A stretch of 64,000 nucleotides of DNA from Paramacrobiotus metropolitanus (lineage: Eukaryota > Tardigrada > Eutardigrada > Parachela > Macrobiotidae). Under the pieces are notes generated by a model. It made no database searches. It saw only the letters and a program-made list of their open reading frames with translations, and was not told the origin of the DNA. Location of the stretch: assembly GCF_019649055.1 (NCBI RefSeq), contig NW_026570296.1, positions 124,001 through 188,000 of the forward strand, given 5' to 3'. The translations under genes and the position numbers were made by a program. Shown here one piece after another: positions 1 to 32,016 of the stretch. Position 1 is the first letter of the stretch. Each line of letters begins with the position of its first letter.

Positions 1-3000
1 GAACGACGTGGAACGAAGAGGAAGGAACATAGGGACATAGGAAAAAGTAACATCTGCTCCATCCGCATAGTGCGTGCAACATCTAGCACTATCGCCAAAT
101 TCCATCCCGACTATCCGGTGCCATCAAAAGTAAGTAACATCGCTCGGTCCGGTAAGTTGTTAGTGAGTTTGAGTGTTATAAGACATCGGATCCTGGAGCG
201 TAACTGGCAATCCGGAAGTCCAAGGAAGTGGAAAGGCGGAGAGCATGAACGTCCATGAGATCCAGGGTGTTATCGTATTTAGAAAGATGTTGAAAAAGAT
301 GTTGTTTATAGCATTAAGTGCTTTAAGACTGAACATTTAGATGTTATTCCGTATTATCCGACTGGCAACAGCACGAAAGTATTCGTCTACTAAAACCACT
401 GCACTACGAACAACTAATAAAAATTAAAGGATTAAAAGACTGGCTGCAACAAGGAAAGTTATATCTGTACTAAGTCATGAAACGTGGTAGGAAGCGAACC
501 ATCAGACATTATACTACGAAAGCTAGTTAAAAAGGAAAAAGCTAGAAATCCTACTGCACTGATAAGAAAGACTAAGTTCAGACGATACGCAATGCAAAAC
601 GCTTAGACTGACAACACACTACAGGAATTAACAAAAACTGAAAACTCTAAAGTTGCTGACTCTGATAAAATGTAAGATCTGTGCATCATTCTATTCTACA
701 AAGCACTCAACTGCAGTACTGCGTAAATGGACTACGAGACACTACACTACGAGTGTTGACAAAAATACAAATTCTACTGTACATACTGCAAAAGCTTATC
801 TGCAAATTCAATGCTGTCTGTACGTGAAAGCAGAGCTGATTGATGGACTGAAAGTCATAACACTACGGAAATTAACAAAAACTGAAACCGACTGCTATAC
901 TGCCACTGAAAATGAAGAGTAAATCTGCACTTAAGATGCAATGATAAAAGATCTACAAGCGATTAAAGCCGAAACACTACGATAAGCCACAAAGTTAGAA
1001 CTATTTAAAATCATACTGCAAAGGCAATATCAACTAACAAGGCAAAAAGTTCAAAATTTAAACACAACAAGGTTATTACTGAGATATAGACGATATAGAC
1101 GCTGCCTGGACTTGCTGGATCTTAAGCCGTCTAACTACGAGTATTCAACGAAAAAGAAGTTCTAGTGCTACATGCACCAATAATCGAAATCCTGTAAGCT
1201 TATAACTGGATGATGAGAAACACACACTAAAGCCGAAATCCTACGCTGATTCACAAAAATAAAGTACTACCGCAACATACTGCAAATGCACTGATTTTGA
1301 ACAACTAGAGAAGATTAAGAAGACATCGATATGGATATAAAGACCGCTAGCCTACGACATTCGACAAAAAGACAGAAATTTGACTACATACCGCACCGAC
1401 TGAATTTGAGAGAATCATTAATTAATCCTGCAACATTGCCGTCATAAAGCTCTACACTACGAATTCTCGACAAAAAGATAATTTCTATGAAACTGAACAT
1501 CTGCATTAGTTCTAACATACTGTTGATTAAAGAAAACCGTAAACCGTCGCGCTGACTCAACATGCCGATAAACTACGAGAATTACTAAAAATACTACCGA
1601 GACTCTAAATACCGCAAGGAAGGATTTATATAAGACTTTACACACATCCATCTGTATAGACAACACAAAGCCGACCAACTACAAACTACCGATTCCGAAA
1701 ATATTAACCATACACATACCGCATAAATAATTATCTGAAGGTGTTAAAAGTTTTAAGGGCCACGGGGGGCGCCAAGACTTATTGTGGTTTTAAGATGTTG
1801 TTAAGATATATAAGATGTTATTATGATGTTACAAAAAGGAAATTTCAACTACTGCATATTGACTTTTAAGGAATCTTGCTCAATGCTCAATTTTATCTAC
1901 ACCAACAAGCCGAACTACTACGAACTGCTGCAAAAAGTAAAACCGAAATTCTCATACCGCATAAAGTTATTAGGAAAGGTTCTGGTACGATTTCCTTGCA
2001 TATACGAACATTACTCTACGATATTCCGATACTGCTAAAAATTACTACTAACATGCCGCAAAAGGTAAAAAGTACTGAAAATTCTGCATTCATGAATATT
2101 AAATGCGAATATCATATATGCTGGAGTAAGCTTTTAATGACCGCCGATACGGTGATATAAAACCATTACACTACGAAGTTCAACAAAAATTAATACCGAA
2201 AATCACATGCTGCACTGCTAATAACGCTTCTATGATCAAACTGGTTGATATTCCATTCGAAACACTGGACTACGAGTTACCTATACTGAGATAAAAATTA
2301 CTGCATATTCTGCGAATTACTGCTAAGTTACACTGATTAATAATTGGGTTATTGGGATGCAACTAAATAGTGTGGAATGGTGACACCGATAAGCGCTAAC
2401 ACTATTACCGCATATCGTTGATGTTGTTGTCGTTATGAGAGGAAAAATACTGAGCTATTTACCACAAAAAGTTATTTCAAAATTCTAATGACAAAATTCT
2501 GCTTTTCCGAATATTTAGCAACAAACGCGTAATACTGGAAACAACTGTTGATTTAAACCGCTACAACCGGAGGAGCACCGTTCTCATAGAGCCACTCTAC
2601 TACAAACAATCGCGAAAAATACTACTACCAATTTCATGCTGCATCCATAATTATTTCTGAAACGGGATTGGGAGGGTGGGAACGCACAAAAATACTACAC
2701 CGCTATCAATTTTCGAGAAAAAAGGAAAATTCAACTGCTTACTGATATTATTCACAAAGCTGGAACAAATTCATTGGTCAAAATCACCTACGTTCAGGCC
2801 GTACATCACACTACGAATTCCTACACTGACAAAGTTAACACTGCTCATACTGCAAAAATAATACTAAAAACTGAAGTTTTACCGAATATTCTGCAACCAA
2901 TACTATTGCTGCTCAATACACTCAAAATGACCACTTGTGTGTTATAAGCTATCGCTCACACTACGATACCACCGCACAAATACAAGTTCAAAATTCCACA

Positions 3001-3860
3001 CCGCAAACCGATACTGCGTAAGCTCATAATGCAAAAAGGTTAATTCTGAAACAATGATCACTAACTGCATTTTATCTGACAGATTACACTGAATATCCAT
3101 ACTGCCATAATACTACATAATTTAACAAAAATTTAATTTCAAAACCGCATATCGCATATTATTGTTAAGTAATCTCTTAGCTAGAGTGAGTCAATTGATG
3201 AACTACAGAGCTAGAACGCCGCTACTGCATCTGCCGAAAATACTACAAGGCCTTCACACTACGAAATTCCACGAAAAATAAAACTCAAATTCTCACACCG
3301 CGATGTTAATAAATCTATAGCACACCCGAAATTGACAGAAGAGTGTGAACGCCGACCGCTACCGAAACATTCTTAGTCTTACTAGCCGTAATTCTACGAA
3401 AATCCACAAAAAATTAAAGTCCAAAGGACATACCGCAAAATCATATTTCTGAACAACAGTACTGTAATACTTCAACACGCTGACGTATTTACACTGCTAG
3501 GCTATACCGAACTCATACGATTACTCAACTGCCCATTTACTACGAAGTTCTACGAAAAATAAAATCTCAAATTACATACTGCAACATCATATTTCACAAA
3601 CTACAGTAATACTGAGCAATAGCACCCGTTAATACCGCTAACATTGTCCATAAACTGTGATCACTGAGCCAATGCACTACGAAATTCTACATTACCTAGA
3701 TCTTACCGCATCATACTGCACAGCTAGAATACGATGGTATGTCATGTGTGCAATATAATGATGTCCTATATTTCCAAAATTACTGCTCCAATTACTTCCG
3801 CTTCTTCCATGTTTCCATACTTCATCCATACACCGAACGTTTATTCACCACACGACTGAA
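1..3860 (-). repeat. Degenerate tandem repeat zone, decayed tRNA-like units
   Basis: No convincing gene is present. The motif CACTACGAA or CTACGAA recurs roughly every 100-200 bases (for example near 402, 746, 1452, 2172, 2815, 3255, 3540 and 3675), usually followed by an A-rich tract such as ACGAAAAATAAAA. The same CTACG motif lies just 5' of box A (minus strand) in the better preserved units at 8.7-12.6 and 51.6-53.4 kb, so this zone looks like an older, decayed array of the same repeat. Box B matches are mostly lost here. A primer-site-like GGGGGGCGCCA lies at about 1765-1775, and a weaker relative near 2390. Short ORFs across the zone are AT-rich accidents. Confidence 0.45.
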
Positions 3861-8268: not shown

Positions 8269-8735
8269 GTTACGAAGAATTTTACCGTGTCTGCTGTATT
8301 GATTTTATTTCTTTTATCTTTTCTCTTACGTCTTGTATATTTACGTTCAATTTTATTCCGATCGCCTTTTGCGATTTTATTCTGTATATTCTGCCCAAAT
8401 TACCGAGTGAATACTGTTCAACTGCGATGAACACTGGTGATAATTTTCTATTTTGATTTTATTTTTCTGGCGTACTCTGAAACTGCCGCAATGTTCAATA
8501 CGAAGTACAATTTCTGTGTTTTACGAAATCAATTAAAAATACGAAGTAAAACTACTGACAATATTGCTACTGCTAAAGCCGCTAATAATTCACTGAGTAA
8601 CACGAAGTATAAAAAGGTTATCCGCTTAATTACCACAAATATAAGATTCATAATTTCTCAAGTGATTTTACCGTAAATACTAATGCAAAATAATTACTGA
8701 ATACTGACAACACAAAAACCGAACCAAAGTTTTAC
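8269..8735. other. AT-rich spacer after the antisense gene
   Basis: The stretch holds the 3' flank of the plus-strand gene and AT-rich sequence up to the first well-preserved Pol III-type unit. The short plus ORF at 8437-8676 has no recognisable features and is probably chance. Confidence 0.4.
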
Positions 8736-8845
8736 AAAAAGATCGCCCTTAAGGGGAATCGAACAAGTGCTACGGAAGTAAAGCCGTTTAAAATCTGACT
8801 TAGCTTAACATATGCTAATCAATGGACCCGCTGCACTACTACGAA
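8736..8845 (-). ncRNA. tRNA-like Pol III unit A1
   Basis: Minus-strand box A TAGTGCAGCGG (8838-8828) fits TRGYNNARNNG exactly. Box B GTTCGATTCCC (8764-8754) fits GWTCRANNC. An oligo-T terminator (AAAAA on plus, 8736-8740) follows. The predicted transcript is about 100 nt. The T-stem does not pair in my check, so this is a tRNA-derived Pol III unit rather than a working tRNA. Confidence 0.5.
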
Positions 8846-9044
8846 TTTCCACGAAAAATGCCGTAAAAGATTACGCCCTAAACTGCTACTGTATAACTGC
8901 CTATAACAATTCCGGTAAGTATTACCACAACAGTTCTCAATATTTACAAATCTAATTTCCGCTCATTTCATAATTCATAATACTATTCCTACGATTTACT
9001 AAAAATAAAAAGTCATTCGTTTGCTCAAAACTGAATGTAAAAAG

Positions 9045-9146
9045 AAAATTCTACTGCTAGCACGGGTTGAACTCGAAACCTGCTTGTCCTACTATTTGAC
9101 AGAAACTACTATGATCTGTAAAGCATGTACCCTGCGCCACTACGCA
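9045..9146 (-). ncRNA. tRNA-like Pol III unit A2
   Basis: A box A-like TGGCGCAGGGT (near 9139-9130) lies upstream of box B-like GTTTCGAGTTCAACC (9078-9064). A TTTT terminator follows (plus AAAA at 9045-9048). Box A deviates at its last base. Position and spacing match the neighbouring units. Confidence 0.42.
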
Positions 9147-9280
9147 GATTACTAAAATTACAACACTACAACACCGCTAATACTAAAAAATTACAGTTAC
9201 TAATACCATTCTAAATTTTACTGCAATACTTCTTGAATTTCCAAAAACATAATTCTGCAAAAATACATACTCCGAAATAC

Positions 9281-9382
9281 AAAAATTACCACTTGCTCGG
9301 GTTTCGAACTATGGCTATACTGCTACCGATGACAATATCCAGATCTGTAGCGCCACTTCATAACCACTCGACTACTACGAAA
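9281..9382 (-). ncRNA. tRNA-like Pol III unit A3
   Basis: Box A TAGTCGAGTGG (9374-9364) is a perfect consensus match. Box B AGTTCGAAACCC (9310-9299) is strong. A TTTTT run (plus 9281-9285) follows about 13 nt later. The CGTAG motif directly precedes box A, as in the other units. Confidence 0.55.
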
Positions 9383-9419
9383 TTCGATAATTCCATTAGA
9401 AATAAACACACTTCGAAGC

Positions 9420-9515
9420 AAAAATTTACAAGTCAGGAATTGAATTCTAATCACGCTGCGACTATTCGTGTTAAATAATTACTGCGAGATCTCTCAGCCA
9501 CTAGGCCACTACGAA
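9420..9515 (-). ncRNA. tRNA-like Pol III unit A4
   Basis: Box A TGGCCTAGTGG (9508-9498) is a perfect match and resembles Ser/Leu-type tRNA starts. Box B GAATTCAATTCC (9447-9436) and a TTTTT terminator (plus 9420-9424) follow. CGTAG precedes box A. Confidence 0.52.
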
Positions 9516-10174
9516 CTTCACGAAGATAAAAATACTACTGCACACTGCAAAAGTTAAAGTTTCAGAATTCATAATGCTTAATGGCTTTTTAGTTTTCAAA
9601 GCAAACTTCAGACGGTGCATGGATATAGTTCCTTATGCCACTACACTACGAGTTTCAATACTACAACATTTCTGTGTCGTCATACTGCAATACACATTTC
9701 CTACATCCAAATTTACTAGGAACAAATGGTTACGCGCCATTGTCGTGCAATGTACCTGTCGTGTCATTTTCTACTACCTATTTACGCCTTATTTCCTAAA
9801 TGTGAGTTTACACACAGCAAGTGAATGGTGAGGAGTGATGGTACCGGGGGGCGCCAACACCACTACTGCCGCTGTTATTATGGTGACACACTGCTATACA
9901 CAGACAAATAAAGTCACTGCAAAATCACCGCTTTAATCCGCCAACAAAAAATACGAGACCCGAAATAGAGCTTTAATAAATCCTCTGAATAAATCTACAA
10001 CTAAATACTGAAGAAAAACGTCGATACATCCGCAAATAAAATATATGAAATGCTGCTGAAATACTGCTCCACAAACACAAGGAAATCTCTCTAAAATCTC
10101 TGAATAAGAGCTATTATCACCGATAAATCAAGGTACTAAGTGAGAACAATTCCATAGAATCGAAAACATGTCCA
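9516..10174. other. Spacer with primer-site-like repeat
   Basis: The stretch contains one further decayed tRNA-like zone and, at about 9845-9859, the sequence GGGGGGCGCCAACACC. Its reverse complement contains TGGCGCC, the core of the element's primer-binding site at 26664. A near-identical block recurs at about 11158-11172. No coding feature is supported. Confidence 0.45.
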
Positions 10175-10561
10175 TTACCAACCATGAGGAAAATGAGGGT
10201 CAACTCTCGGCTGCGGAAGATTATAGGGACGATAATACTTGCGAAAGAACTCTTTGTCCGCTTCTTCCTTACTCATAGCTGACTGCTGAGACCCGCTGGT
10301 CATCGTCTTCTCTGCTTCTTTCGGAACTTCACGAGACTGCATTGGAGTCTCAACATTCGCTTTCTCCACCACTTTCGCCGCATTAGGTTCGTTCTTCAGG
10401 TCGTCTTTCACATGCCAATCGAGAACCTTGGAAGAGAGATCTTCCATCACACGCTCTCTCACACTGTCTGCCATTTTCACGCGATCATCAAATGCATTCT
10501 CAGAAAACAAAAGAGCTCGAGCACCGCTGTGCTGCTTAATAATTTCACCACGTTTAGACAT
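10175..10561 (-). CDS. Small accessory protein of element A, 128 residues
   Basis: The ORF starts at ATG 10561 and ends with TAA. It is highly charged, with a predicted helical middle (residues 30-60) and a C-terminal aromatic/Pro-rich patch 'FFRKYYRPYNLPQP'. No known family is recognised. By position between the antisense gene and the next sense ORF it corresponds to the small B ORF at 53936-54118. Only a short helical stretch looks alike, so homology is uncertain. Flanking units on both sides are Pol III-type repeats. Confidence 0.55.
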   Translation of the reverse strand: MSKRGEIIKQHSGARALLFSENAFDDRVKMADSVRERVMEDLSSKVLDWHVKDDLKNEPNAAKVVEKANVETPMQSREVPKEAEKTMTSGSQQSAMSKEEADKEFFRKYYRPYNLPQPRVDPHFPHGW

Positions 10562-11514
10562 GACAACGCGAAATTCTCAACAAATAAGAGTAATTCTAAT
10601 AAAATATCTGCCACTGAAATTCTCGGACTGAAACACTGAAGAATTCTACCGCTCAAAACACGCAATACTGACTCACGTACTGGATTCATCATACTGACTC
10701 AAACTGCTGACCATACTGAAGCACATAAACGTCATAACTACCGCTACTTAATTGCACATAACTTTGATAAATTCTGAAATCCGCATTTTCATCCCAAAAA
10801 TAGTTTCCTACTGATTTTTCAATAAAAGGAATTTCCAAATCATACTGCATAGTTTTTTACACTTGAACATACATTATAACGCTGCTGTACAGATTTATCA
10901 TATAGCCACTGAGCTACTACTTTTGCCTAAAATAATTACTAGAATTTACATATTCCGCCATCAGTAAGATAAATCTCTTGCACTCATAATTAATTATACT
11001 GGTTCACAGACAACTGATTGAAATAATTCGACAAATCAGAACACTGCCGCTCAAATTTCTGACACAGATTTTCATATTCACGGGCAAATATGTTCTGCCA
11101 CACGCGTTCTGAAGTATAATCGGATTAGCTAATAACTGATGTGGAAAAATGACACCGAGGGGGCGCCAACACCAGTACTGCTAAGTTTTGATGTTATGTG
11201 ATTATCCAACACAAACTGCTATCCGCAAAAAATATTACAAAACGCTCATTGCTGCTTCATAAGGGAAAAAGAAATTTCTACTACAATTTCCGCTCTGCTA
11301 TACATAAGATTTCTCGTCATAACCCCTGATGCGCTCGTTCAATAGAGCCACTGCTCTACGACTTTTACATACCGCTAATATCGAAGTTTGCATACACCGC
11401 CAAAACAAAAACTGATTCCCTATAAATTACTAATATTACAGCTAAATAATAACATTCTGACTTTTCAGCGACTTAATAATTGCAAGGTTCATCCACGGAA
11501 AAATAATACACGCC
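10562..11514. other. AT-rich spacer with a second primer-site-like repeat
   Basis: No gene is supported. At about 11154-11172 GAGGGGGCGCCAACACCAG repeats the block seen near 9845, including the downstream ACACCASTACTGC. Scattered CTACG motifs suggest decayed tRNA-like units. Confidence 0.4.
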
Positions 11515-11602
11515 AAAAATTATTCTGAAGAATTGATACCAGTTTCTCTTGGTATGCAATGCGAGAATATCACGTAGGCCGCACTCACTGCGCCAGCTAC
11601 GA
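11515..11602 (-). ncRNA. tRNA-like Pol III unit A5
   Basis: Box A-like TGGCGCAGTGAG (11595-11584) has the TGGCGCAG start common in real tRNA genes. Box B GGTATCAATTC (11540-11530) and a TTTTT run (plus 11515-11519) follow. Confidence 0.45.
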
Positions 11603-12230
11603 AGTTACTAAAATTACAATTCTAAACACCGCTGATAATTGACGATAAATACTGCCGTATATTTACAAATACAAATCCTACTGAAATTCTCATAAAGTTT
11701 ACCAAAAATTATGACTGTGCTGAGTATCGAACTCTAGAACACCTGAAACAAATGCTGCTTTTGAAGGTTTCTCATGCCTGATGCTATATGGTTACTACCC
11801 ATAAGACACTACCAATTGCGCTAAAAATACGGATAAAAAGTTGCCTACAAGCGCTATCTTGGTTTTCTGAAGGATCAACCTTTGTATGCCGACAGGGTAT
11901 CAACTACTCAAAAGGACTAAACTTAATGTTGTCCGTGGCTTCAACCACTACGCTACTGAGGCTTAACTAAAAATTACAGAGATTCATACTGCTTAAAGTG
12001 AAAAATACATATACCTACATGAATTTGCAAAAAGTGAAGTTTTTTCTATAATTTACTAACTGTTTTTACGTCTGTTATTTTTCTTCTGTTTTAGTGGCTA
12101 ATCAGCTTTGCGGTACTTCGGGTCGTTGCGAAATTGTCTGTCAAAACACTACACTACGATTTTCGATGTTATTTGTAATTTCTATTAGCGTGCTGCATCA
12201 TACTGCTACTTTCGAATAAATACTAAAAAT
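11603..12230. other. Spacer with weak tRNA-like remnants
   Basis: A box B-like GAGTTCGATACTC lies at 11732-11720 on the minus strand without a good box A. The rest is AT-rich with CACTACG motifs. No gene is seen. Confidence 0.35.
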
Positions 12231-12317
12231 AAAATTTCAGCAGGGACTCGATCCCAGTTACACAGAGTTTTACTGATTACGGCGTCACCATGGATCTTTG
12301 CACTAAACTACCGATAA
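12231..12317 (-). ncRNA. tRNA-like Pol III unit A6
   Basis: Box A TAGTTTAGTGC (12310-12300) misses one consensus base. Box B GGGATCGAGTCCC (12255-12243) keeps a short GGG/CCC pairing of a T-stem. A TTTT terminator is at plus 12231-12234. Confidence 0.5.
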
Positions 12318-12334
12318 TTCACAAAATAAACTGC

Positions 12335-12425
12335 AAAAAATAATCATTTGGGATTGATACCCGTGACTGTGGTTTTAAACACTCGACTTCACTGAAGATC
12401 GTAACCACCACGCTATCTACCAATT
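12335..12425 (-). ncRNA. tRNA-like Pol III unit A7
   Basis: Box A TAGCGTGGTGG (12416-12406) misses one consensus base. Box B GGGTATCAATCCC (12362-12350) has GGG/CCC pairing. TTTTTT follows (plus 12335-12340). Confidence 0.5.
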
Positions 12426-12511
12426 CCTATAATTTCTTGTTTTCCTATACAGCTAATATATTTTACTCGACTCCACTACCTTATACATCAATTCTGGCAA
12501 AAATTTCCGCC

Positions 12512-12614
12512 AAAAATTTAGACCTATACTGGTTTTGAACTCATAGCTTTGAATTACCAAGTATATTACGAGATTCATCCGGACGCATTCGCTAACCACT
12601 CGGCCACAAGTTAC
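12512..12614 (-). ncRNA. tRNA-like Pol III unit A8, Ser/Leu-type start
   Basis: Box A TGGCCGAGTGG (12606-12596), continued as TTA, is identical to the start of many Ser/Leu tRNAs. Box B GAGTTCAAAACC (12542-12531) and TTTTT (plus 12512-12516) follow. Acceptor, D and T stems do not pair well by hand, so a decayed or repurposed tRNA is more likely than a functional one. Confidence 0.55.
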
Positions 12615-12937
12615 AACGAATTTCCTATAAATTTGATTTATTTTACCGCATTTAACTAATAATTAAATGCTGTGTTTACACACTGGCTCTACCTACAGCC
12701 GCATCGATAATTTGACCACAAATTTATTAACACGCTGTACAATTTCCACCGACTATTTATTCAAAGTAATGCCGCGTCGACACACATAACAAAAGAGATC
12801 ACTATACAAATTTAACAAAATAAGACAATCATACCGTAATCATACCGGAATCATTATCGTACACATCAAAATGCTCATTTCTCAGACGGCTTTTTCCAAA
12901 AACAAACACCATAATCCACTACAGTTACAAAACTGTT
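12615..12937. other. Spacer, nothing recognised
   Basis: AT-rich 3' flank of the next minus-strand ORF. I see no gene, repeat or RNA signal. Confidence 0.4.
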
Positions 12938-14778: not shown

Positions 14779-17168
14779 AATTCACCATCAAAATTAATGG
14801 ACAAGTTCTACACCGCGCAAAACTACACTGTTTGAACACGAAACTCCGCGACCCACAAAGCACGCTACTGCTGACCGCTCATCTGGCACGTGCTGAGCAT
14901 TACGTCATCAAAACTGCTTTTGCGTGTCTCGCAACCCGTTTTTCGTCAAAAAATACACATACTCCATAAGTATTTCGATTTTCTTACATTATCTGCATTT
15001 TTTACGAAAAACTTAATCTTCTCTTATTATTATCTCAAAAATAAATACGAACTTTTCCCTTTATTTTACTAGCTGCTTATTGACAACAATAGCATAGAAG
15101 AACTGCAGCTGTCATTACACTACACTTTTCCACATTTGCTAATACCAATTTTCACATACTGCATTGGCTTGAGACGGCCACTCCGTGCTCTGCCGCAATT
15201 CTACGAACTCGCGATAAAAATAAATTTCAATAATCGTTTGCTCGAATTTCAAAGTGAAGAATGCGTACCGTTTCGAGACCAGCAGATACTGAACCATAAC
15301 GCCAGTATTCTACGAAATTTCATATTTACAACAAATAAACTACGCATGCCGCAATATACAGTTTTCATAACCGCATCCAAATTATTCCCACACAGTCTCA
15401 TTCATTGATTTTCGAATTCATAACACTCTTCTTATGCAAAAACATGATCTCCAAGCAAAAAGTTTGAGTTCTAGCATTTGATTTTTATTAGTGAGGATTA
15501 CACACTGACTCGTACTTTTAAAGACTTAGCACCGTGGATGGCTTGCTGCTCTCCAAGCCTTAATACTACGTAAATCCGCAAAAACTTAAATTTCAAGCCA
15601 CCTTAGCGCCGGCTAAATCCGCTACTATACTAACTGATCTGGTTCTTTAAACGGATATCGGTCTGGGTTTCACCCCTTTACTACGATTCGCTAATGTTTC
15701 TAACTTTACTCGAAATCATGTTGCAATACACTATATCCGCTAACATCTAACTTAATTCATAATTCCTAATTGTCCACCCCAAAAATTTATATACCTCCTG
15801 TCTTCAAGGATTATTCACTTCTATGTCAATTAATTTCACCAAAAACTAAAATTCTTAGACGCATTGCGTCGGTTAGATCCGTATCTTAAGCCAATGGCTG
15901 ATTCGAACCACTATATACGGAATCTCCTGCGTTTTAGCCATAACACTACGGCTAACCACACCTGTACTCGAAAATTTAAACATGCCGCAATATCATTTCA
16001 TTTTGCCTCGTACAAAGTTACCCATTCCGATTTTCTTTTAATTGCTTAATTTATTAAGTTTGAATTTCCTACGCTTGAAATGCCGTGGAACCAAACCATT
16101 GAACTACAATCTGCTATATTTACATCCAGTGATTACAATCATGCCGCGAAATAGCATGTTCACTTTTTATGGAAAAACCATTCCGGTATTTCACAAAAAA
16201 GAAAGGATAAAACCTAAATTTTCATTTATTATTATTTTCCTTGTTAAGCCAACGCTATGTTCAACGGAAATCTGCCACACACTCATTTCACTACGTTTAT
16301 ACGCAAAAATAAAATTTTTAAGTCGCCGAAACGCCGACTCAATCTGTCATTCAAGTTTACTTGAGCTGTGAGAACATTACTCGAATGGATTTGAAATGCT
16401 TATAACCATTTCACTACAACTTACATTTTTACTCCTATTATTTAAAATCATACTACAACCCAGTTATGCTGTAACGATTTCATAAAAACTATGCCATAAT
16501 TTTAAAAATTTGTTTAAATTTGTAAATTCATACGCAAACAACCAGGATATTCTTTGTCCGTACTTTGCATCTATCACCGTCCACACCGGACCAATATACT
16601 ACGAAATTCTAATAAAAGAAAACTCTCTTAGCCAGCCTGCTGCTGACCACTACCGTTCTTATGTTGCCTATAATGAGCACTCTGAACGACATGCAGTACT
16701 TCGTTAGCCTTTACGCTACAATTTTTCCACAACACCAAACTCTGATTTCTACAAACCGCAAAACAATAATAACTCGTCCGACTTTGGTTTCTTACATTCC
16801 GACTAAAAATATTACTCATATTCAAACTCAAAATATTATACTACAATATTCGACAAAAATTAATTTCCCAAATCTGTACTGTTCAGACCTTCATACAGCT
16901 ATATTAATCTTTTAATAGAACACGATGCTGACGGCATTTATGGAAGTGCACTTAAGCCAATACACTACATGCGATTGCTGATTTCCACAATAAAAAATTT
17001 TACACCGCTAATTTCAACACGAATTCTCACTATTAAGCACTGCCTACTGATTATGTAACTATAGGCGCTTAAAACAGGCGAATTGCAGCTCCTACGTACA
17101 CGCCGCTTCACTACGTCATTTCCTATCTACTGAAATTAACAACACTTATACTGCAATGTACAGTTTCC
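14779..17168 (-). repeat. Degenerate tRNA-like repeat zone between pol remnant and accessory genes
   Basis: CTACGAA motifs recur. One unit still has a strong box B (minus TGGTTCGAATCAGCC, 15910-15896) with a box A-like TAGTGTTATGG (15948-15938). Other B-box-like remnants occur near 15480 and 15650. Protein-coding potential is poor throughout. Function, if any, is unknown. Confidence 0.4.
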
Positions 17169-18302
17169 TCAACTCGTACCCCATTTCTGCCTAAAAATAT
17201 GCCCGGGAAGTTTGCTTTCAAACTTTTCAATTTCCTCTCTCATATTTGGCCAATAATATCTCTTAACTTCATATAAACATTTAGATATCGTCATATCTGG
17301 ACCGAATTCTTTCTCATAATTGACCCGTTTATTCGTAGCTAACATAAGCTTCTCGCGCCACTGAAAAGGAATGAAAATATGCGAATTATGCCGCTCACTA
17401 CCTGGCGTTTTATGACGTACAAGTTCATTATTTTCCACTAACAGCGAATTAATTTCCGCACGTACTGCCTCAGAATCTACATTCTTCGGGTTCTTATAAA
17501 AATTACGCCATGACTGAATATCTACAAACCTTTGTTGTTGCTCCAACCAAAAAGCTTTACTGTCCCATTCCGCATTAGACGGAAAATAAAATTCATCGCC
17601 ATCATTCGTTTTTGGTCTAGTCCATTTAGGCAAACTATTAGATTTTCCTGACCGCTTGCTTTTCACTTTAGATTCGTCATTTTTAACAACTTCTATACAC
17701 TGAGCTTCCGCTTTCTTAGATTCCTCCTGCGGTGGTACGTATTTACCACGCAACTCTACCGGTACTTCCGCATAACCCGATACATTTACTGGTACTACAG
17801 ACTCTTGAACAACGTTGTGTTGCACTGCCATGAGATTGACTTCCGATTCAACCTGCTTATGTACTACCGCCGGCTTCTCAACTGTACAAGCATCCACAAG
17901 CTGCACTTGACTACCGCTACTAACTACACCGTCAAAAATAATTTCTGGACTCGCATTAACTGCAACTGCTTGCTTCGGCAAATAACAATAAAAATCCTCA
18001 TTAGTTAATTTCCTAATGTCATCCGCTACTTTATGTATTCCCTTACTATCTCTAACAATACAAACTGACTTCCCATTATTACAAAAAGCATTTGACGTTT
18101 TAATGCAAATACTATTAGCACCATTTTTCTCGTTAAAAATATTAACCGCGTTACATTCGCATGCCTGTAACTTTTTACAAATAACATCGTGGAAATCATC
18201 TTCATAATAATTTTCGCCCTCTGAGTAAATTTCTTCAACAGGAACAACATTTCCCAAATAAAAATTTTCAGATAAATCTACTGATTCGTCCGAATTATTC
18301 AC
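17169..18302 (-). CDS. C-terminal part of element A polyprotein: linker copy 2, RT remnant 2, degenerate H2C2 module
   Basis: This 377-codon frame is in the same frame as the preceding ORF and is separated from it only by two TAG codons (18389-18387 and one near 18338). Residues 1-50 complete the second linker domain ('NFYLGNVVPVEEIYS'). Residues 76-110 ('SVCIVRDSKGIHKVADDIRKL') match the N-terminal RT motif of B ('PICIVKKKDKSRRLTVDFRKL'). After a Lys/Pro-rich spacer, residues 245-375 repeat the FW..QQ...W plus 'IPFQWREKLM...YYWPNM' module found before integrase zinc fingers. The His and Cys ligands of that module are replaced, so zinc binding is probably lost. The frame ends with TGA. No RT catalytic core, RNase H or integrase follows. 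Confidence 0.65.
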   Translation of the reverse strand: MNNSDESVDLSENFYLGNVVPVEEIYSEGENYYEDDFHDVICKKLQACECNAVNIFNEKNGANSICIKTSNAFCNNGKSVCIVRDSKGIHKVADDIRKLTNEDFYCYLPKQAVAVNASPEIIFDGVVSSGSQVQLVDACTVEKPAVVHKQVESEVNLMAVQHNVVQESVVPVNVSGYAEVPVELRGKYVPPQEESKKAEAQCIEVVKNDESKVKSKRSGKSNSLPKWTRPKTNDGDEFYFPSNAEWDSKAFWLEQQQRFVDIQSWRNFYKNPKNVDSEAVRAEINSLLVENNELVRHKTPGSERHNSHIFIPFQWREKLMLATNKRVNYEKEFGPDMTISKCLYEVKRYYWPNMREEIEKFESKLPGHIFRQKWGTS

Positions 18303-18386
18303 AACAATTATACCGCAAAAACCATTTTCAACAAACTAAACAATACCGTCACAGAACAATAATAGACCGCAATTTTTACCTTCATA

Positions 18387-20438
18387 CTAGAAATTCTGCT
18401 CTAATAATCCGCCCTTAGTTAATTCTGCTAATTCACTACCGAATTTGTTAATACGCGCACGTATAACTCCCCTATTTCTCGGCCGAATTTCGATCGGATA
18501 TTGAGGTACTAACCCTAATTTACTAAAATCTGCTGACCGCTTCATCGTTGCCGTATTAATTTCTACTGATTTCTGACTTTGTATTGCCGGTACTGAAACA
18601 ACTTCCTTAGCTGTCTGCACTGCCGAGATCGGCACAGTTTCCACGACCTTTTGCTTTCCTAAAACTAGTATATTTAGTTCAGACTCGGGCACACTCTCGA
18701 ACATGCCTTCAATACTAATATCGATTTCCTGCATACTGCTCTGAATCTGCGGTCTACTACTAACCTTTACTGTTTCAGTACTAACGACCTTCTTTGTTTC
18801 TATAGTGGCTACCTGACACTCTCGCCTCGGTAAATCCTTTATTCCATGCGATAATTTCCGCCAATCGTCAGTTAAACTTACTGACCCGTTACTCCTCTGA
18901 ATAATAACCGCTGGAGTTCCAAAAGTAGAATCCGACACCAAATGCTTAGACTCGAGTTTACTGACCATTTCCTCCGTATCTCGGTCAATATTATCGACAC
19001 CTACTTTCCTATTAACGAGTTTTTTCGCCCAACACTCGCAATTTTTGGCAATAGTACAAACTGCATCATGAAAATTATTGTTGAATTTATCCGAACCAAC
19101 CGCATAAATTTCGTCAATTGGATCTAATTCACCCAGAAATAGATTACTGCCAATTTGCACAGTTTTATCCGACAGATTCATCACAGGAATACGCAAACAC
19201 CCATTTTCATTAACATCAATCACACCGTCAAACAGAAGCAAATTGCCAAACCGTTTACCTTCATACTCAAAATTTTGCTCAACCAGACCATTTCTCACCA
19301 ATTCAGCAATTTCAGATTCAGACTTATTTATACGAGCACGAATCACACCTTTGGGCCGAGGTTTAATATCAACCGCAAATTGAGGAAAAACTTCCATAGC
19401 ACAAAAATCAACTGCCGGTTTATTCTGCTTCGTTGCCGCTTCATTCACAAGACGTGCCGTTTCACTGCTCACCGCAGGTACCGTTTTGTTCAAGTCAAAG
19501 ATAGGCTCATTCCGAAAAGCAGACTCATTCCGAGGAACAGACCCATTCCGAAGATTTCTCTTCTCAACATTCGACTGTCTAACGTTTTGCTTAACATTCG
19601 ACTGAACAGGTGGAACTGACCACTCATCATCATCTGCCGGTGCTAATCCTGCAAATGTCACTTTCTTACCTTTTTTCTTAATCTTCGTCGGCTTATCACT
19701 CTTCTTATACGCCGCATCTACTCTATTCCGCTGAATCGTATCCGTAAAACTACTCGGTAACGGATCTCGTATTACTCCTGGTTTGTTTACCTGAATTGGA
19801 CCGTCAAAATCCACTCGAGAAATAGCTCTCGCCATAGCACGCTGGTCTTCCGCTGAGACAGGTGCCTTACCAAGGTCAACATCGTAATTGCCTTCAGCCG
19901 GTACAAATTTTCCATTGACAAAATCTCCAGTTTCTCCTTGCAATACCGCGAACTTATTCGTATATTTCGGATTAACCCAAGTCGCCACTTCATCTTTCGA
20001 CATATCTGACTGCAAGTACTCATTACTTGCCGGATCTGGATGTCTCGGAGGACGTGTATCCCGATGCTCAGGATAACAGAACTTGCAATTAGCTTCGACA
20101 TGATCAATCTCAACTAACATATTCGGCCAATAAAATTTTTCAACCAAAAGACGATAAGTCGTAGTATCTTTCAAAATTTTCTCATGCTTAACTGCCGCAT
20201 GTACTGCCAAAATTAGTTTAACACGCCAATGATACGGTACAAAAATACGTGGTTTAGCGCCTCGCGCCTCATTCTTATGACATAGAACTCCATCATAAAT
20301 CGTAAACCAGTTAATTTCTTCCTTAATGAAATTTGTATCTGCCATCTGAGGATTTAAATGCAAATGATACCAACACTTAGCGTCACCCTGCGCTCGCTGC
20401 TGAGCTCGCCAAAAACGTAACCTTATTAAAATCCGCAA
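18387..20438 (-). CDS. Element A polyprotein: H2C2 module, linker copy 1, RT remnant 1
   Basis: The real frame enters from 5' by a +1 shift at a T5 run near 20402; the apparent start at 20438 is not used. Residues 63-121 form an integrase-type H2C2 zinc module (H80, H85, C118, C121, 'PRIFVPYHWR', 'FYWPNM'). A basic spacer follows, then a linker domain at 345-460 ('VDIKPRPKGVIRARI', 'LLLFDGVID'). An RT N-terminal remnant lies at 503-536 ('FGTPAVIIQRSNGSVSLTDDWRKL'). Instead of the rest of RT, a second linker copy starts at 640. Element B has the same H2C2, spacer, linker and RT order but with complete RT. Confidence 0.7.
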   Translation of the reverse strand: MRILIRLRFWRAQQRAQGDAKCWYHLHLNPQMADTNFIKEEINWFTIYDGVLCHKNEARGAKPRIFVPYHWRVKLILAVHAAVKHEKILKDTTTYRLLVEKFYWPNMLVEIDHVEANCKFCYPEHRDTRPPRHPDPASNEYLQSDMSKDEVATWVNPKYTNKFAVLQGETGDFVNGKFVPAEGNYDVDLGKAPVSAEDQRAMARAISRVDFDGPIQVNKPGVIRDPLPSSFTDTIQRNRVDAAYKKSDKPTKIKKKGKKVTFAGLAPADDDEWSVPPVQSNVKQNVRQSNVEKRNLRNGSVPRNESAFRNEPIFDLNKTVPAVSSETARLVNEAATKQNKPAVDFCAMEVFPQFAVDIKPRPKGVIRARINKSESEIAELVRNGLVEQNFEYEGKRFGNLLLFDGVIDVNENGCLRIPVMNLSDKTVQIGSNLFLGELDPIDEIYAVGSDKFNNNFHDAVCTIAKNCECWAKKLVNRKVGVDNIDRDTEEMVSKLESKHLVSDSTFGTPAVIIQRSNGSVSLTDDWRKLSHGIKDLPRRECQVATIETKKVVSTETVKVSSRPQIQSSMQEIDISIEGMFESVPESELNILVLGKQKVVETVPISAVQTAKEVVSVPAIQSQKSVEINTATMKRSADFSKLGLVPQYPIEIRPRNRGVIRARINKFGSELAELTKGGLLEQNF

Positions 20439-20900
20439 GACTCGGTTTCATCTCACGTGTTTCTGGATCAAGTCTCGGTATCATCCAACGTTTCCAATCC
20501 GAATCAACTTTATACAGTGCACTTTTAACAGGCACTCTCTTACCGTTATTCTGTTCGACTGGCACTACGTTCAATTTCCTACCCGCAATCGTCAAAGATT
20601 TACCGTTATTAACCGCTTTATCGCCACTAACCGCTGGCTGAATAATACCTTTCTCCATCAAATGCTGATTACGTTTAATCATATTCGAATCAGGAAAAGT
20701 ACGTCGCTGCACAATACTCTTATTCTGTGAATTATTCTGAAGGGTTTGGGCGGGTGGGACCGCATAACTACGCACATTCTCAACATTACCGCGTATATTC
20801 TCACGCTTATTTTCACCCCTGCAAACTTGCTTAGCACTGCTATCGACTGGGAAAGAATTACCCCCGCAAACTTGCTGTGACACACCCCCCGCAAACTTGC
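20383..20900 (-). CDS. Element A polyprotein: spacer downstream of protease
   Basis: This frame continues the gag-protease frame after a +1 shift at a G6 run (20884-20891 on plus). It contains three QV/CGG or QVC repeats encoded by polypurine-tract-like sequence, then a polar spacer that matches B's region before its H2C2 module ('KRWMIPRLDPETREMKPSLADFNK' versus 'KKWMTPMDRPQDKQLF'). It leaves this frame at the T5 run near 20402. Confidence 0.55.
20814..20899 (-). repeat. Three internal polypurine-tract-like copies
   Basis: On the minus strand CAAGTTTGCGGGGG occurs at 20899-20883 (with six G) and 20874-20858. CAAGTTTGCAGGGGTG occurs at 20829-20814. They encode QVCGG or QVCRG. The same core occurs at 21133-21118 and 23707-23691. 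It resembles B's 3' polypurine tract at 45684-45694. Confidence 0.6.
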
Positions 20901-23158
20901 TGTTCACCTGAATTCGTAATACTGAAAACTTCTTCCTCAAAAATTCTGCCGTTATTTTGTCCGCGAAAATTCTGATTATTCGCAATTACCGGTTCATCAA
21001 CGTGACCAAGTAATTTATCATACCGCTTACGTACATCCGCTAATTCTGCATCCCTTACACTACGATTTACTGCCGAATTATCCGTAACTTCTCTCTGCTG
21101 GGCGGTGGACTGAGATACACCCCCGCAAACTTGCTTACCGCCACCTGCTGGCTGACTATTATTCGGCTGATTTTCTGAACTACTTACGTCTGCATAACAG
21201 ATCGAATCTGACACTCTCGGCCATTTTCTCACCGCATAATCCATTTCCGTCTGACAAATATCGACTGGTGCACCGATGTACACATTATGCGCTGTCTTAT
21301 ACGGAAGAAATTCCGCATACGGGGCAAAACCCAACATATTCGCTTGCATTAAAGCCGGGATCGACTTACCATAATACGTATGCACTGGAGCTAACTCAAC
21401 GAAATTATGCTCTCTGACAATCTCATCCATGTCGCAAGTCTTCCTTAACGCATTCTCATGTAATTTGGCTAACGAATTCTGACGAATCATACGCCAAGTC
21501 ATCGAACTGAAGTCCAAAATGAAAGGTTTCGTGACGAAAAAGTCCATTCCCGAAATAATATGATCACGATCGCAATTTGTGCTTACCAAACACGTATGTT
21601 CAAATGCCGTACCGAATTCATGGATAGTAATTAAAGTCGACAGAGGTTCAACTGCATGCTGACCGTTATATGCCGTATTTACCAACATACCCTTGACATG
21701 AGTCGGACATTGAAAAATGTACAAATCTAACTTCTTCGCTAACCGAAAAGGAATTATCGAAATACTCGAACCTGTATCGATCATGACCTTAACCTGTTTG
21801 TAATTAACGTCAATCGTACAATACCACGCCTGCGCGTCTAACGTCGGCTTATGAATTACCAATTCTGACGCTGGATACTTCGACATGTCAATTACTTCCG
21901 TCGTATTACACTGCGCTGGTTTCTTCTGCCATACATACTCGAATTCATTCACATTTACCTGCGCACCGTAACGTCGCAACATTTCCATAGTCGGTTCGAT
22001 GAGACGAGGATACGCTAAAGGTCGCTGACATGCTAACGCTGCATGCAAATCATGACACTTATAGCAAGTTTCCCTACCATTCGACAATCTCCACTTGTCT
22101 CTCTGAATTTGACTCTCATTAAACTGACCATTATTCTGCTGCTGATCATTTCGAATATCATTCGAAAAATTTCCGCCGTTATTTCCAAAATTATTACCGC
22201 CATTTCCGAAATTATTATTACCGTTAAACCGAGGACGAAAATTTCCATTACTATTATTTCCATTAAAACCGCCGCGATTACCATTCTGAAATCTCGGTCT
22301 GAAATTATTCTGTCCGCAAAAATTATTCATAGGCGCACTTTGCCTAAAATTACCCTGATTCTGAAAATTCTGCGAATTCATCATATTCTGATTATTCTGC
22401 AAAGGCTGAAAATTCTGAATTGGCTGACCGCTATTTACCGGAGCCATCGCCATATTAGGCTGCTGTGCCACCTGAACAAAAGACTGCTGATCTGGCATCT
22501 GCACTGGATTCGACATCTGAACTGGGTTCGACAACTGAACTGGAGCATACACTGGTTGCTGTACTGAAGACAACACAGGCTGCTGCAAAACTACCGGATT
22601 CTGATAAACTGGTGGGACCATCTGAACAGGCTGACCACTCCAGTTACCGCCGTTATTATTACCGAAATTACCATACTGACGTGTATAATTTCCACGCCCT
22701 GAATACTGACCACGGAATGAATTACCTCGCGCTGCATAATTACCGCGACTTCCATAGTTACCACGGCCACCTCTGAAAGTGCCGCTAAATCCGCTGAAAC
22801 TATTGTTACCGCCTGAACTTACACGCTGAGTTTCAGGAGACTTTTTCTCACCACCGAGAATATTCTGTAGTTTTTCCAACTCTCTCATGTGCTTAATTAA
22901 TTTGTACGGATCAGTAATATTCATGATAAATAAATGCCTATACCAATCTGGCTTATTACTTTTCAATCCTTCAAGCAAAATGCTAGTTTTCTCAATATCG
23001 CCTAATTCCAAATCGTTAAACCACTTAATGAAACTATCCGCATAATTATCGACTGTATCTTCGTCACGAAAAATTCTTGCCGTCATTTCTCTACGAATAT
23101 CTGCTGGAGACGTCGCAATATTAAAATGTTCAAGAATTTCTTTCTTATAAAAATTTTC
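20858..23158 (-). CDS. Element A Gag C-terminus, zinc knuckle and aspartic protease
   Basis: This frame is the direct continuation of the Gag frame after one TAG at 23161-23159. It completes the capsid C-terminal helices, then has an RG/Asn/Gly-rich region at residues 100-320 (numbered from ATG 23086), a CX2CX3HX4C zinc knuckle at 341-353 and a retropepsin-type protease with DTGSS at 437-441 and a downstream 'IISGMDF' motif. The following region matches B ('PFILD..(T/S)MTWR'). The frame breaks at a run of six G where sister copies of the repeat have five. Confidence 0.8.
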   Translation of the reverse strand, partial: ENFYKKEILEHFNIATSPADIRREMTARIFRDEDTVDNYADSFIKWFNDLELGDIEKTSILLEGLKSNKPDWYRHLFIMNITDPYKLIKHMRELEKLQNILGGEKKSPETQRVSSGGNNSFSGFSGTFRGGRGNYGSRGNYAARGNSFRGQYSGRGNYTRQYGNFGNNNGGNWSGQPVQMVPPVYQNPVVLQQPVLSSVQQPVYAPVQLSNPVQMSNPVQMPDQQSFVQVAQQPNMAMAPVNSGQPIQNFQPLQNNQNMMNSQNFQNQGNFRQSAPMNNFCGQNNFRPRFQNGNRGGFNGNNSNGNFRPRFNGNNNFGNGGNNFGNNGGNFSNDIRNDQQQNNGQFNESQIQRDKWRLSNGRETCYKCHDLHAALACQRPLAYPRLIEPTMEMLRRYGAQVNVNEFEYVWQKKPAQCNTTEVIDMSKYPASELVIHKPTLDAQAWYCTIDVNYKQVKVMIDTGSSISIIPFRLAKKLDLYIFQCPTHVKGMLVNTAYNGQHAVEPLSTLITIHEFGTAFEHTCLVSTNCDRDHIISGMDFFVTKPFILDFSSMTWRMIRQNSLAKLHENALRKTCDMDEIVREHNFVELAPVHTYYGKSIPALMQANMLGFAPYAEFLPYKTAHNVYIGAPVDICQTEMDYAVRKWPRVSDSICYADVSSSENQPNNSQPAGGGKQVCGGVSQSTAQQREVTDNSAVNRSVRDAELADVRKRYDKLLGHVDEPVIANNQNFRGQNNGRIFEEEVFSITNSGEQQVCGGCVTASLRG
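21118..21133 (-). repeat. Internal polypurine-tract-like copy
   Basis: Minus-strand CAAGTTTGCGGGGGTG, encoding QVCGG. Same core as the copies at 20814-20899 and 23691-23707. Confidence 0.6.
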
Positions 23159-25669
23159 CTAATCGCGATTTAGTTTATCGCGAAGTAAACCTTGGAACCA
23201 TAATACTGCGTTACCTTTCAGTGCACCAACAACTTGTCTGCACGTATCATTGTCACTCCATCCATTCGACAATCGACACTGATCAACTTGCGTGAGCCAA
23301 TGTTCAATCGAACCTGACTTCCGCTTACCTTCGTACGGTTGTAATTTCATCACATTACTCGGCTTGCTGGAGTTTGCATTCTTCATCGCCTCCGCCATAA
23401 TTTTGATCACACCAAGCCAATCTGGATTCGCATTCTGCTGTGCAGCCAAACCACCGACCGGCGCTGCATTCACGTCTTCCATGTCGACATTACCGTCCTC
23501 ATCGATACCGTTATTTACCGGTATTTCAACATTAATCAAGGGAACATGCCCTACGTTAACCGCCTGCGTATGCCGCCTATCTTGCGACTGATGCCTAACA
23601 CGAGATGCTGCCGAACGAGGCTGATCTGATCTCGGTTCGTTTAACTGACCACTGTCATTACGCGAAGCTAAGGGAACTCGGAGAGAGTTTTCACCCCCGC
23701 AAACTTGATTGCTGCTGCTACCGACTGAATTACCCGCGTTAAACTGACTGCTTCTGCTACCATGATTATTCAGAGTACCACTCGGTACAAAACCCTGAGA
23801 CTGACCTGACATCTGCGCAATATTACTGTAAGCCGGTGGCTGATTAAAGGCCAAGTTACCCGTGCCTACACGAACTTCAGGTTCAAAATTCCACTCTCTT
23901 TCATGCGAAATCTGATTACCTTTCAATTCTTCTGCTTCAACTCGCAATTTTTCCATACGCTGCATTAGATCGAGAATTTCGGAATCTTTACCGTCAATTC
24001 TGACACCAACTGAATGAATTAATTTCTCTTTCTCTTCAAGCGTTGCATTAAGCTTGCGTTCCCTACTCAAAGCCGATTTCAAATCTTTTTCCGCAACAAT
24101 TTTCGCATTACATTCCAATTTACAATTAACTTTTAACTGCTCAATTTCCAGAAGCAATTTCTTCTCAATTTCTTTGAAAACAGCTAAAGCCTGCAAATTA
24201 CTCGAACCAAGTGATTTCGATGCTTCTGCCTTAACTTTCTGCAAATGTTCATTTGCTGACCGCAACTGAGCACTAAGCTCCTGATTTTCCAAAATTAATT
24301 TCGACGACTGAGAATCTTCCTCCTCAAGATCGCGAATACGTTTTTCATTCACCTGACACTTACTCGAAAGTGCACGAACATTTTTCTCATGTTCTGCATT
24401 ACTTGCCTGAACTGCCGTTAACTGCTGCCTTAGAGCCGAAATATCACCGTGTAATTTATTTTTCAATTCATCGTCTTTAGTCAAAATTTTGTTCAACCGA
24501 TCAATTTCACTGCTATTTTGCAACTGCCTAAGACACAATGCAACATAATTTTTTGTACACCGAATCATAGTACCCAATGAATCACGAGTGACTGCTAATG
24601 CCTCTTGCTCCGATTTTGAAGCTTTCAACTTAGCGTCCACCTCACTTACTTCTTGCGCAAATTCCTGATTTAAGGGATCAAAATCATTTTCAAAAATAAA
24701 ATGCCGCAAATCTGACTGAAGAGGATGCAAAAGATTATTCACATTTTCATCAAAAGGAATATCTTCATCCAACAATGACTTTTCACAATTAAACGCTGTA
24801 TTATTTTCATCATCTGAATTTTCAGAAAAAGGAGTTCCTTCTCTCATCGTAATATTACCAAGGAAATTACTGCCAACCGTATTATTATTCTGATCATTGC
24901 TCATAGCGATCACGCGTTCATCGCTTACTTGAGCCGCTGCACTACGTTCTCTCGCCATATTGGACGGAGTTACAAAATTCCCTACCGCTACCGAATTCAA
25001 ATTTTCAACTGCATTTCCAACTACTTCTGCATTCTGCACATTTACTGACTGCCCTACTGAGTGTGGAATTACCAGTTGCGACATCACCGATCTCCTCGGA
25101 TCCACCACTTGATCTGGATTTACCACTGACGGAGTTACCTGTTCCCCAGGATTAACCGTACCAACTGACTGACTTGAAATCAACTGCATATTGGACAGAG
25201 TCATGCCATTTTTCTGTGCACTCGAAGCCGAACTATCTTCCAAGTCCAACAACGACTCACTTACCGCATTCCCAGAATTCTCAATAATTGCCGAGGCGTT
25301 TAACGGCCCATCTGACATAACTATGGTATCCCGAGATTTCTTACCAGTACCTGACTCCTTTCTTTGCTGAACTTCTGCCTCGTACGCAGTGACATTCAAG
25401 GTCGCCCATTCTTTCGCTGCTTTAAACTCTGCTTCTGACATATTCAAATAAGCTGACGGGATAGACCGTTCGTGCGAGAACCAAGTGCTATAGTAACTCG
25501 GAGCTAACCCTACTGCCCTATACATTAAGCCAAGGGGAACTTTCTTCGGAAACTGAAAACGAGTATCGAACTCGCTTTCAACCGCTTTCGACTGCAATCT
25601 ATCTGATTCGATTTTTCTCAATGGCCAAACGCCATCTCGTTTCACAGTTAAATCTGCTGATTCTGACAT
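23159..25669 (-). CDS. Element A Gag with long coiled coil and N-terminal capsid part
   Basis: The ORF is 836 codons from ATG 25669; the open frame extends 43 codons further 5', but this start precedes the conserved-looking part. The order is polar N-terminus, low-complexity Ser/Asn/Val region, a long heptad-rich coiled coil at about residues 345-585, a QVCGG repeat at 655, an acidic patch, and the start of a retrotransposon capsid domain from about 773 ('SIEHWLTQVDQC', 'LKGNAVLWFQGLL'). It is interrupted by TAG at 23161-23159 in the middle of capsid, with the same frame continuing. A coiled coil of this length ahead of capsid is unusual in Ty3/Gypsy Gag. Confidence 0.8.
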   Translation of the reverse strand: MSESADLTVKRDGVWPLRKIESDRLQSKAVESEFDTRFQFPKKVPLGLMYRAVGLAPSYYSTWFSHERSIPSAYLNMSEAEFKAAKEWATLNVTAYEAEVQQRKESGTGKKSRDTIVMSDGPLNASAIIENSGNAVSESLLDLEDSSASSAQKNGMTLSNMQLISSQSVGTVNPGEQVTPSVVNPDQVVDPRRSVMSQLVIPHSVGQSVNVQNAEVVGNAVENLNSVAVGNFVTPSNMARERSAAAQVSDERVIAMSNDQNNNTVGSNFLGNITMREGTPFSENSDDENNTAFNCEKSLLDEDIPFDENVNNLLHPLQSDLRHFIFENDFDPLNQEFAQEVSEVDAKLKASKSEQEALAVTRDSLGTMIRCTKNYVALCLRQLQNSSEIDRLNKILTKDDELKNKLHGDISALRQQLTAVQASNAEHEKNVRALSSKCQVNEKRIRDLEEEDSQSSKLILENQELSAQLRSANEHLQKVKAEASKSLGSSNLQALAVFKEIEKKLLLEIEQLKVNCKLECNAKIVAEKDLKSALSRERKLNATLEEKEKLIHSVGVRIDGKDSEILDLMQRMEKLRVEAEELKGNQISHEREWNFEPEVRVGTGNLAFNQPPAYSNIAQMSGQSQGFVPSGTLNNHGSRSSQFNAGNSVGSSSNQVCGGENSLRVPLASRNDSGQLNEPRSDQPRSAASRVRHQSQDRRHTQAVNVGHVPLINVEIPVNNGIDEDGNVDMEDVNAAPVGGLAAQQNANPDWLGVIKIMAEAMKNANSSKPSNVMKLQPYEGKRKSGSIEHWLTQVDQCRLSNGWSDNDTCRQVVGALKGNAVLWFQGLLRDKLNRD
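23691..23707 (-). repeat. Internal polypurine-tract-like copy in gag
   Basis: Minus-strand CAAGTTTGCGGGGGTGA, encoding QVCGGE inside Gag. It shares its core with the copies near 20.8-21.1 kb. Confidence 0.55.
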
Positions 25670-26646: not shown

Positions 26647-26664
26647 GAACCACGGAGGGCGCCA
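26647..26664 (-). promoter_or_regulatory. Primer-binding site of element A
   Basis: Immediately inside the 5' LTR the minus strand reads TGGCGCCCTCCGTGGTTC. TGG complements a tRNA CCA end, and TGGCGCCC is a frequent start of Ty3/Gypsy primer sites. The primer tRNA cannot be assigned without the host tRNA set. Confidence 0.7.
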
Positions 26665-31879: not shown

Positions 31880-32016
31880 ATATAGATCATTTTCCTCTCT
31901 CAACCTTCACGAGTATATCTTCCTTCCCATGCTCACGATTCCACCACAGAAAGTCTTCCTTATTTCGCTCCCGTGCGAGGACTGAAACTTTCCGAGAAGC
32001 AGACGAAGTGTGACGG

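Follow-up and report, generated by a model that had tools for sequence, protein, structure and literature searches.

A putative array of RNA polymerase III small-RNA units inside a giant LTR retroelement of the tardigrade Paramacrobiotus metropolitanus

Results

An array of tRNA-gene-like units downstream of pol

We analyzed a 64-kb stretch of the genome of the tardigrade Paramacrobiotus metropolitanus (C76:124001-188000, hereafter the window), which carries on its minus strand a long terminal repeat (LTR) retroelement of about 28.7 kb, here called element A, with two LTRs that are 99% identical. A preceding sequence-only reading had pointed to a series of units at 8736-12614 of the window that resemble tRNA genes, each having the two internal promoter boxes of a type-2 RNA polymerase III (Pol III) gene, box A and box B, followed by an oligo-T terminator. 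The thirteen units of this array (array A) are listed below in window coordinates. Extents of U1-U6 and U10-U13 are predicted, and T4, T5 and T6 denote runs of four, five and six T.

12513-12615, minus strand: unit U1; box A TGGCCGAGTGG at 12606, box B GTTCAAAAC at 12540, T5 at 12516
12337-12424, minus strand: unit U2; box A TAGCGTGGTGG at 12415 (one mismatch), box B TATCAATCC at 12359 (one mismatch), T6 at 12340
12231-12319, minus strand: unit U3; box A TAGTTTAGTGC at 12310 (one mismatch), box B GATCGAGTC at 12253, T4 at 12234
11836-11964, minus strand: unit U4, weaker; box A TAGCGTAGTGG at 11955, box B with two mismatches at 11880, T5 at 11839
11705-11832, minus strand: unit U5; box A TAGCGCAATTG at 11823, box B GTTCGATAC at 11732, T5 at 11708
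11516-11604, minus strand: unit U6; box A TGGCGCAGTGA at 11595 (one mismatch), box B TATCAATTC at 11538 (one mismatch), T5 at 11519
10848-11362, minus strand: U7 (from 11362) and U8 (from 10920), both weak; box A present, box B plus terminator not convincing
9580-9653, minus strand: weak unit U9; box A TAGTGTAGTGG only
9421-9517, minus strand: unit U10; box A TGGCCTAGTGG at 9508, box B ATTCAATTC at 9445 (one mismatch), T5 at 9424
9282-9383, minus strand: unit U11; box A TAGTCGAGTGG at 9374, box B GTTCGAAAC at 9309, T5 at 9285
9045-9148, minus strand: unit U12; box A near 9142 (one mismatch), box B GTTCAACCC at 9072, T4 at 9048
8737-8847, minus strand: unit U13; box A TAGTGCAGCGG at 8838, box B GTTCGATTC at 8764, T5 at 8740

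Nine of the 13 units have both boxes with no more than one mismatch each and a tRNA-like spacing of 45-80 nt between them. The distance from box B to the next run of at least four T (T4+) in U1-U6 and U10-U13 is 15, 10, 10, 32, 15, 10, 12, 15, 15 and 15 nt, respectively; the value of 32 belongs to U4, and the other nine units fall within 10-15 nt. Host tRNA genes, inspected by eye, have box B and T-run in the same order and equally far apart. The earlier count of at least eight units holds when one mismatch in box B is allowed (nine units) and drops to six under the literal box B consensus given there. All units are oriented like gag-pol, on the minus strand, as had been proposed.

Box scans were compared with 300 Markov simulations of the array. 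Box A with at most one mismatch, exact box B and a T4+ run within 30 nt occurred together six times (simulated mean 0.13, maximum 2). With both boxes exact there were four matches (mean 0.03, maximum 2), and with exact box A and at most one mismatch in box B there were seven (mean 0.39, maximum 4). A strict scan of both strands of the window (at most one mismatch in box A, box B exact, T4+ within 29 nt) returned ten matches: six in array A, four in a second minus-strand array (51654-52844) and none elsewhere. As a control, 43,144 bases of host flanks gave 13 exact matches, every one at a tRNA gene (11 distinct; L038 and L039 overlap). In 21 kb of three further loci (L031, L032 and L043, the last being the copy of element A on contig C80) there was one exact stray match and three with at most one mismatch in box A, all in L032 and outside any array. 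We rejected L031 and L032 as further arrays: the former has no strict match and the matches of the latter do not form an array.

Boxes and terminators are selectively conserved

Searching the 170-Mb genome with region 8400-12900 provided 17 element copies, the window's included, whose pieces are 76-95% identical (names such as C76 and C80 are contig labels). Array fragments on C100 and at C17:554555-555445 lie outside this set. The array was seen inside element copies only, bar three 46-nt matches to a non-unit motif, and it lies downstream of pol wherever both could be located. Across the 17 copies, exact box scans gave 56 sense versus 0 antisense matches, and scans allowing one mismatch in box A gave 94 versus 8.

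Mean pairwise diversity among the 17 sequences was lowest in the terminator T-runs (0.018), followed by box A (0.049), box B (0.052), the segment from box B to the T-run (0.079), the inter-box segment (0.105) and the spacers (0.135); columns with fewer than 8 of the 17 sequences, stretches below 62% local identity and the open reading frame (ORF) at 10576-10175 were excluded. Circular shifts of the annotation gave P < 0.0002 for T-runs, 0.001 for box A and 0.005 for box B, and inter-box diversity was not distinguishable from the shifts (P = 0.12). T-runs after box B were also less variable than 44 other T4+ runs, which are a fair homopolymer control (0.016 versus 0.090, Mann-Whitney P = 0.0007). 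Retention was 119 of 120 cells for the terminator T-runs and 441 of 613 for the others (cells below 50% local identity were left out, and U11 contributed none of the 120).

Copies carry alternative inter-box blocks at U1, U4, U9 and U13, and the boxes stay in place; a unit was marked absent in copies with less than 45% or less than 40% identity there. As noted in the sequence-only reading, inter-box sequence differs from unit to unit; its diversity across copies is not above that of the spacers, and the boxes are less diverse than the sequence between them. Diversifying selection between the boxes is not supported, the spacers being more variable than the inter-box segments.

The predicted RNAs are neither tRNAs nor stable hairpins

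The number of paired positions, averaged over nine units, was 3.1 of 7 in the acceptor stem, 3.2 of 4 in the D stem and 2.4 of 5 in the T stem, compared with 2.9, 2.9 and 2.0 at random places and 7, 4 and 5 in ten host tRNAs. The eight units of the second array gave 2.5, 2.6 and 3.0. A tRNA cloverleaf is therefore absent from both arrays, and tRNA searches of array A using ARAGORN and Rfam found none. This supports the proposal of the sequence-only reading that a Pol III promoter is kept and tRNA function is not, given boxes and T-runs conserved in 16 other copies and stems near chance.

Units with tRNA-like boxes and broken stems are also what one would expect of decaying tRNA genes, or of tRNA-derived short interspersed elements (SINEs), caught in the element. 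This origin is contradicted by the constraint on boxes and terminators, and the genome search found no free copies of the units, although short matches would escape it. We consider it highly improbable.

Folding energy equals that of dinucleotide shuffles (mean z of 0.005 for 13 units, -0.13 for seven units of the second array and 0.49 for 22 of the box-A-like modules described below). Precursors of microRNAs (miRNAs) were rejected on this ground. Consensus folds contained 0-1 pairs per unit with two-sided change. U4 and U10 folded better than column shuffles (z of -3.7 and -3.3), and the other 11 units were within two standard deviations. We also rejected a guide function within the window: when the 13 inter-box segments are compared in both senses with the remainder of the window, the longest matches are 10-12 nt, the same as in shuffles.

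A second array in a related element

The window contains a further array on the same strand, in a different, gypsy-like element (element B).

51590-53400, minus strand: second array, eight units, downstream of pol of element B

Counting the one in the window, this array region is present at no fewer than 39 genomic places (40 of 60 candidates were scored), and conservation was assessed at 8 of the 38 other places. In these eight copies box A (shift P = 0.018) and the T-runs (P = 0.0005) are conserved, inter-box diversity is 0.083 versus 0.161 in the spacers, and the strict scan finds 25 sense and 0 antisense matches. Arrays A and B do not retrieve each other in DNA searches. The integrase part of element B has 20 homologous proteins, mostly on metagenome contigs, the best with 31% identity over half of the query. 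Several units of element B have a second T5 run 33-35 nt past box B, and a shared CCTTC-like motif stands before this second run.

Box-A-like modules on both sides of the array

Element A also carries 37 modules (YGTAG with a downstream GG) on the sense strand, on both sides of array A.

15100-17150, minus strand: 13 box-A-like modules (YGTAG...GG), of which one contains an exact box B
400-3720, minus strand: 24 box-A-like modules, all lacking an exact box B, many of them preceded by GCRGYRTG at a distance of 38-39 nt

Exact box B was found in 1 of 13, 0 of 4 and 0 of 24 of the 41 modules and weak units beyond the ten scored units, which is not above simulation. A motif matrix trained on the element matched the minus strand of the window 75 times and the plus strand 8 times, compared with 3-9 matches in each of five shuffled versions of the 17-kb element part. 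A comparison of 18 modules over six copies showed the least variation in the T-run, CGTAG and GG.

In 17.2 kb the upstream word GCRGYRTG was counted 32 times on the sense strand and never on the opposite strand, and 14 of the 32 sit 38 or 39 nt upstream of YGTAG. Such spacing is unexplained by a type-2 promoter and would suit a repeated motif bound by a protein of the element or the host, in which case box B-like words and T-runs would be bystanders. The combined GCRGYRTG and YGTAG pattern is peculiar to the element A family as well (60 of 63 genome matches, against six matches for the reversed control). However, conservation of GCRGYRTG between copies is not above that of its surroundings, and a binding motif leaves both the box B and terminator geometry and the array of element B unexplained. 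We find this account quite improbable.

The modules bear on another alternative, namely that the boxes are TFIIIC/TFIIIB binding sites that maintain open chromatin at the element or serve as a boundary, the RNA being a by-product. Open-chromatin and boundary roles have been reported for tRNA genes and extra-TFIIIC sites, and a literature on TFIIIC and insulation exists. Boxes more conserved than the RNA body, a body no stabler than shuffles and 37 extra modules without box B enrichment are all in line with it. Yet the terminator T-runs, which mere binding does not need, vary least, and inter-box diversity in element B is half of that of the spacers. On balance we regard this alternative as unlikely.

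Two readings of the motifs were rejected. GTATG...TTTTT...CGTAG does not represent splice sites, as all five other copies of module 867 have GC in place of the GT, and GCRGYRTG is not an upstream promoter element like that of host U6 genes, as it is absent from four of them. These U6 small nuclear RNA (snRNA) genes (L052-L055) start with GAGGTGTTTCCACCTC in three of four cases, the fourth being one base off, and TATATAAG lies about 25 nt upstream of two host U6 snRNA genes.

A candidate cluster of Pol III small-RNA genes

Directly seen are the arrangement of the units, their tRNA-gene-like geometry, the selective conservation of boxes and terminators and the second array in another element family. 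Selection that keeps the promoter and terminator of Pol III small-RNA genes would be the simplest account of these features, and we infer that the units are transcribed by Pol III. We thus favor the view that the array is probably a cluster of compact type-2 Pol III small-RNA genes that a giant LTR retroelement carries between pol and its 3' LTR and that act in trans on the host; the trans-acting function is a guess by analogy.

Several observations weigh against this view. Box B is exact in just 6 of the ten scored units, and the loosest scan, with one mismatch in both boxes, is not decisive: its 12 matches (simulated mean 3.4, maximum 12) are not above simulation. Conservation of box B in element B is not significant (P = 0.175). 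Because pol DNA of element B is 71% identical to the reverse transcriptase (RT)-bearing C80 copy of element A, the two arrays are not shown to be independent in origin and may share one ancestor. Judging from the folds of U4 and U10, some of the unit RNAs may be structured. Finally, no target for the unit RNAs was found within the window.

If the units are Pol III genes, host Pol III would read each of them separately from the LTR-driven RNA polymerase II (Pol II) transcript, and every unit would yield an oligo-U-ended RNA of about 90-130 nt. The genomic RNA would be unharmed by the terminator T-runs because T-runs do not stop Pol II. Being neither tRNAs nor long hairpins, the unit RNAs might work on the host as decoys or regulators, like viral Pol III RNAs.

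The Pol III pre-miRNA cluster of bovine leukemia virus (BLV) is described as five Dicer-processed hairpins, each with an A-like box, a B-like box (with one exception) and a terminator (PMC4267658). Array A resembles it in having several compact type-2 Pol III genes side by side in a retroelement, but differs in lacking excess hairpin stability, in having 9-13 units and in being carried by an LTR retrotransposon (PMC4267658). The TMERs of gammaherpesvirus 68, which comprise a tRNA-like structure followed by miRNA hairpins, are similar as multiple Pol III genes with tRNA promoters in a viral genome; their tRNA-like 5' structure and miRNA hairpins have no counterpart in array A (PMC8223928). Array A belongs to neither type, because hairpins and cloverleaf were both tested for and not found.

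TRIMp3 elements (Helenus, Ajax, Cassandra) likewise combine a small-RNA-derived Pol III promoter with an LTR element, but they are miniature, non-autonomous elements that hold their tRNA- or 5S-like sequence in the LTRs, whereas array A consists of many internal units in an element of about 28.7 kb (PMC10886601). The strict box triplet is absent from the LTR at 26665-27645. The giant LTR elements Burro and Ogre are comparable in size (20-30 kb) and in having extra ORFs, but the word tRNA has no occurrences in the text of the review describing them (PMC6431247). A literature search found no report of an LTR retrotransposon with Pol III units arrayed in its interior, which, as the search mostly did not include subscription journals, is weak evidence of novelty.

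Clusters of Pol III small RNAs are so far known from a few retroviruses and herpesviruses. A constrained array in a giant LTR element, together with another in a related gypsy-like family, would mean, if our view is correct, that retrotransposons too carry multi-gene small-RNA programs, and the role of such RNAs for a transposon would become testable by small-RNA sequencing of a single species.

Structure and copies of element A

The remaining features of element A in the window are as follows.

26665-27645, minus strand: 5' LTR, repeated at C76:122962-123946 (99%) and at places in other copies
26650-26664, minus strand: primer-binding site TGGCGCCCTCCGTGG, its first 12 bases complementary (by eye) to the 3' terminus of host tRNA-Lys(TTT), CCA included
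17169-25807, minus strand: gag, protease and pol-remnant ORFs, with a weak aspartyl protease match
10175-10561, minus strand: 128-aa ORF between U8 and U9, function unassigned, constrained across copies

The 3' LTR is C76:122962-123946, just outside the left edge of the window. With paired LTRs, a primer-binding site and gag/pol, the carrier is an LTR retrotransposon, although its aspartyl protease match (in 20858-23086, E = 1e-4) is weak, falling short of Pfam's cut-off. The 128-aa ORF is free of internal stops in 13 of 17 copies and has a pN/pS of 0.29 over 136 pairs, indicating constraint; a Pfam search with it gave no match.

No RT domain was found in the scanned ORFs of the window copy. 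The C80 copy is 92-93% identical to it, but only as far as 19053, and a 1227-codon open frame starting in the matching stretch of C80 encodes RT, RNase H and integrase domains. Copies on C292 and C347 have RT matches at the corresponding place. From 19053 to 12900 (minus strand) the window sequence diverges, upstream of RT, from these three RT-bearing copies. An RT-less subfamily of 13 of the 17 copies, the window's own included, likely exists because 12 other array-bearing copies match the window beyond 19053 (C101, C46, a second copy on C76, C192, C17, C91, both copies on C86, C93, C2, C68 and C50); the absence of RT in these is taken without a direct search, and C491 is not assignable.

Box-A-like units and modules number about 50 in all. 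One could imagine that the element family holds interchangeable small-RNA cassettes, with a fixed Pol III frame and block alleles that reassort between copies to give diverse decoy or guide RNAs, the RT-less subfamily having further modules and units in place of RT. We offer this as a speculative extension that is rather doubtful.

Some minor observations concern repeats and neighbors. The core of the primer-binding site, TGGCGCCC, has three internal copies (1767-1774, 9849-9856 and 11161-11168, minus strand) besides the true site at 26657-26664. TGTTGGCGCCCC is present twice in nine contigs carrying array copies; one of its occurrences lies in a 46-nt stretch that recurs at C55, C34 and C98. 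A nuclear-receptor domain and a calcineurin-B homologue are encoded by host genes adjoining tRNA genes, in keeping with an animal host; searches for Chitin_bind_4 and Col_cuticle_N gave no match, in control genomes either. Elsewhere in the window, a direct repeat with an identical 300 nt and a 71-nt tandem unit is found at 30233-30586 and 31527-31880, a spacing of 1294.

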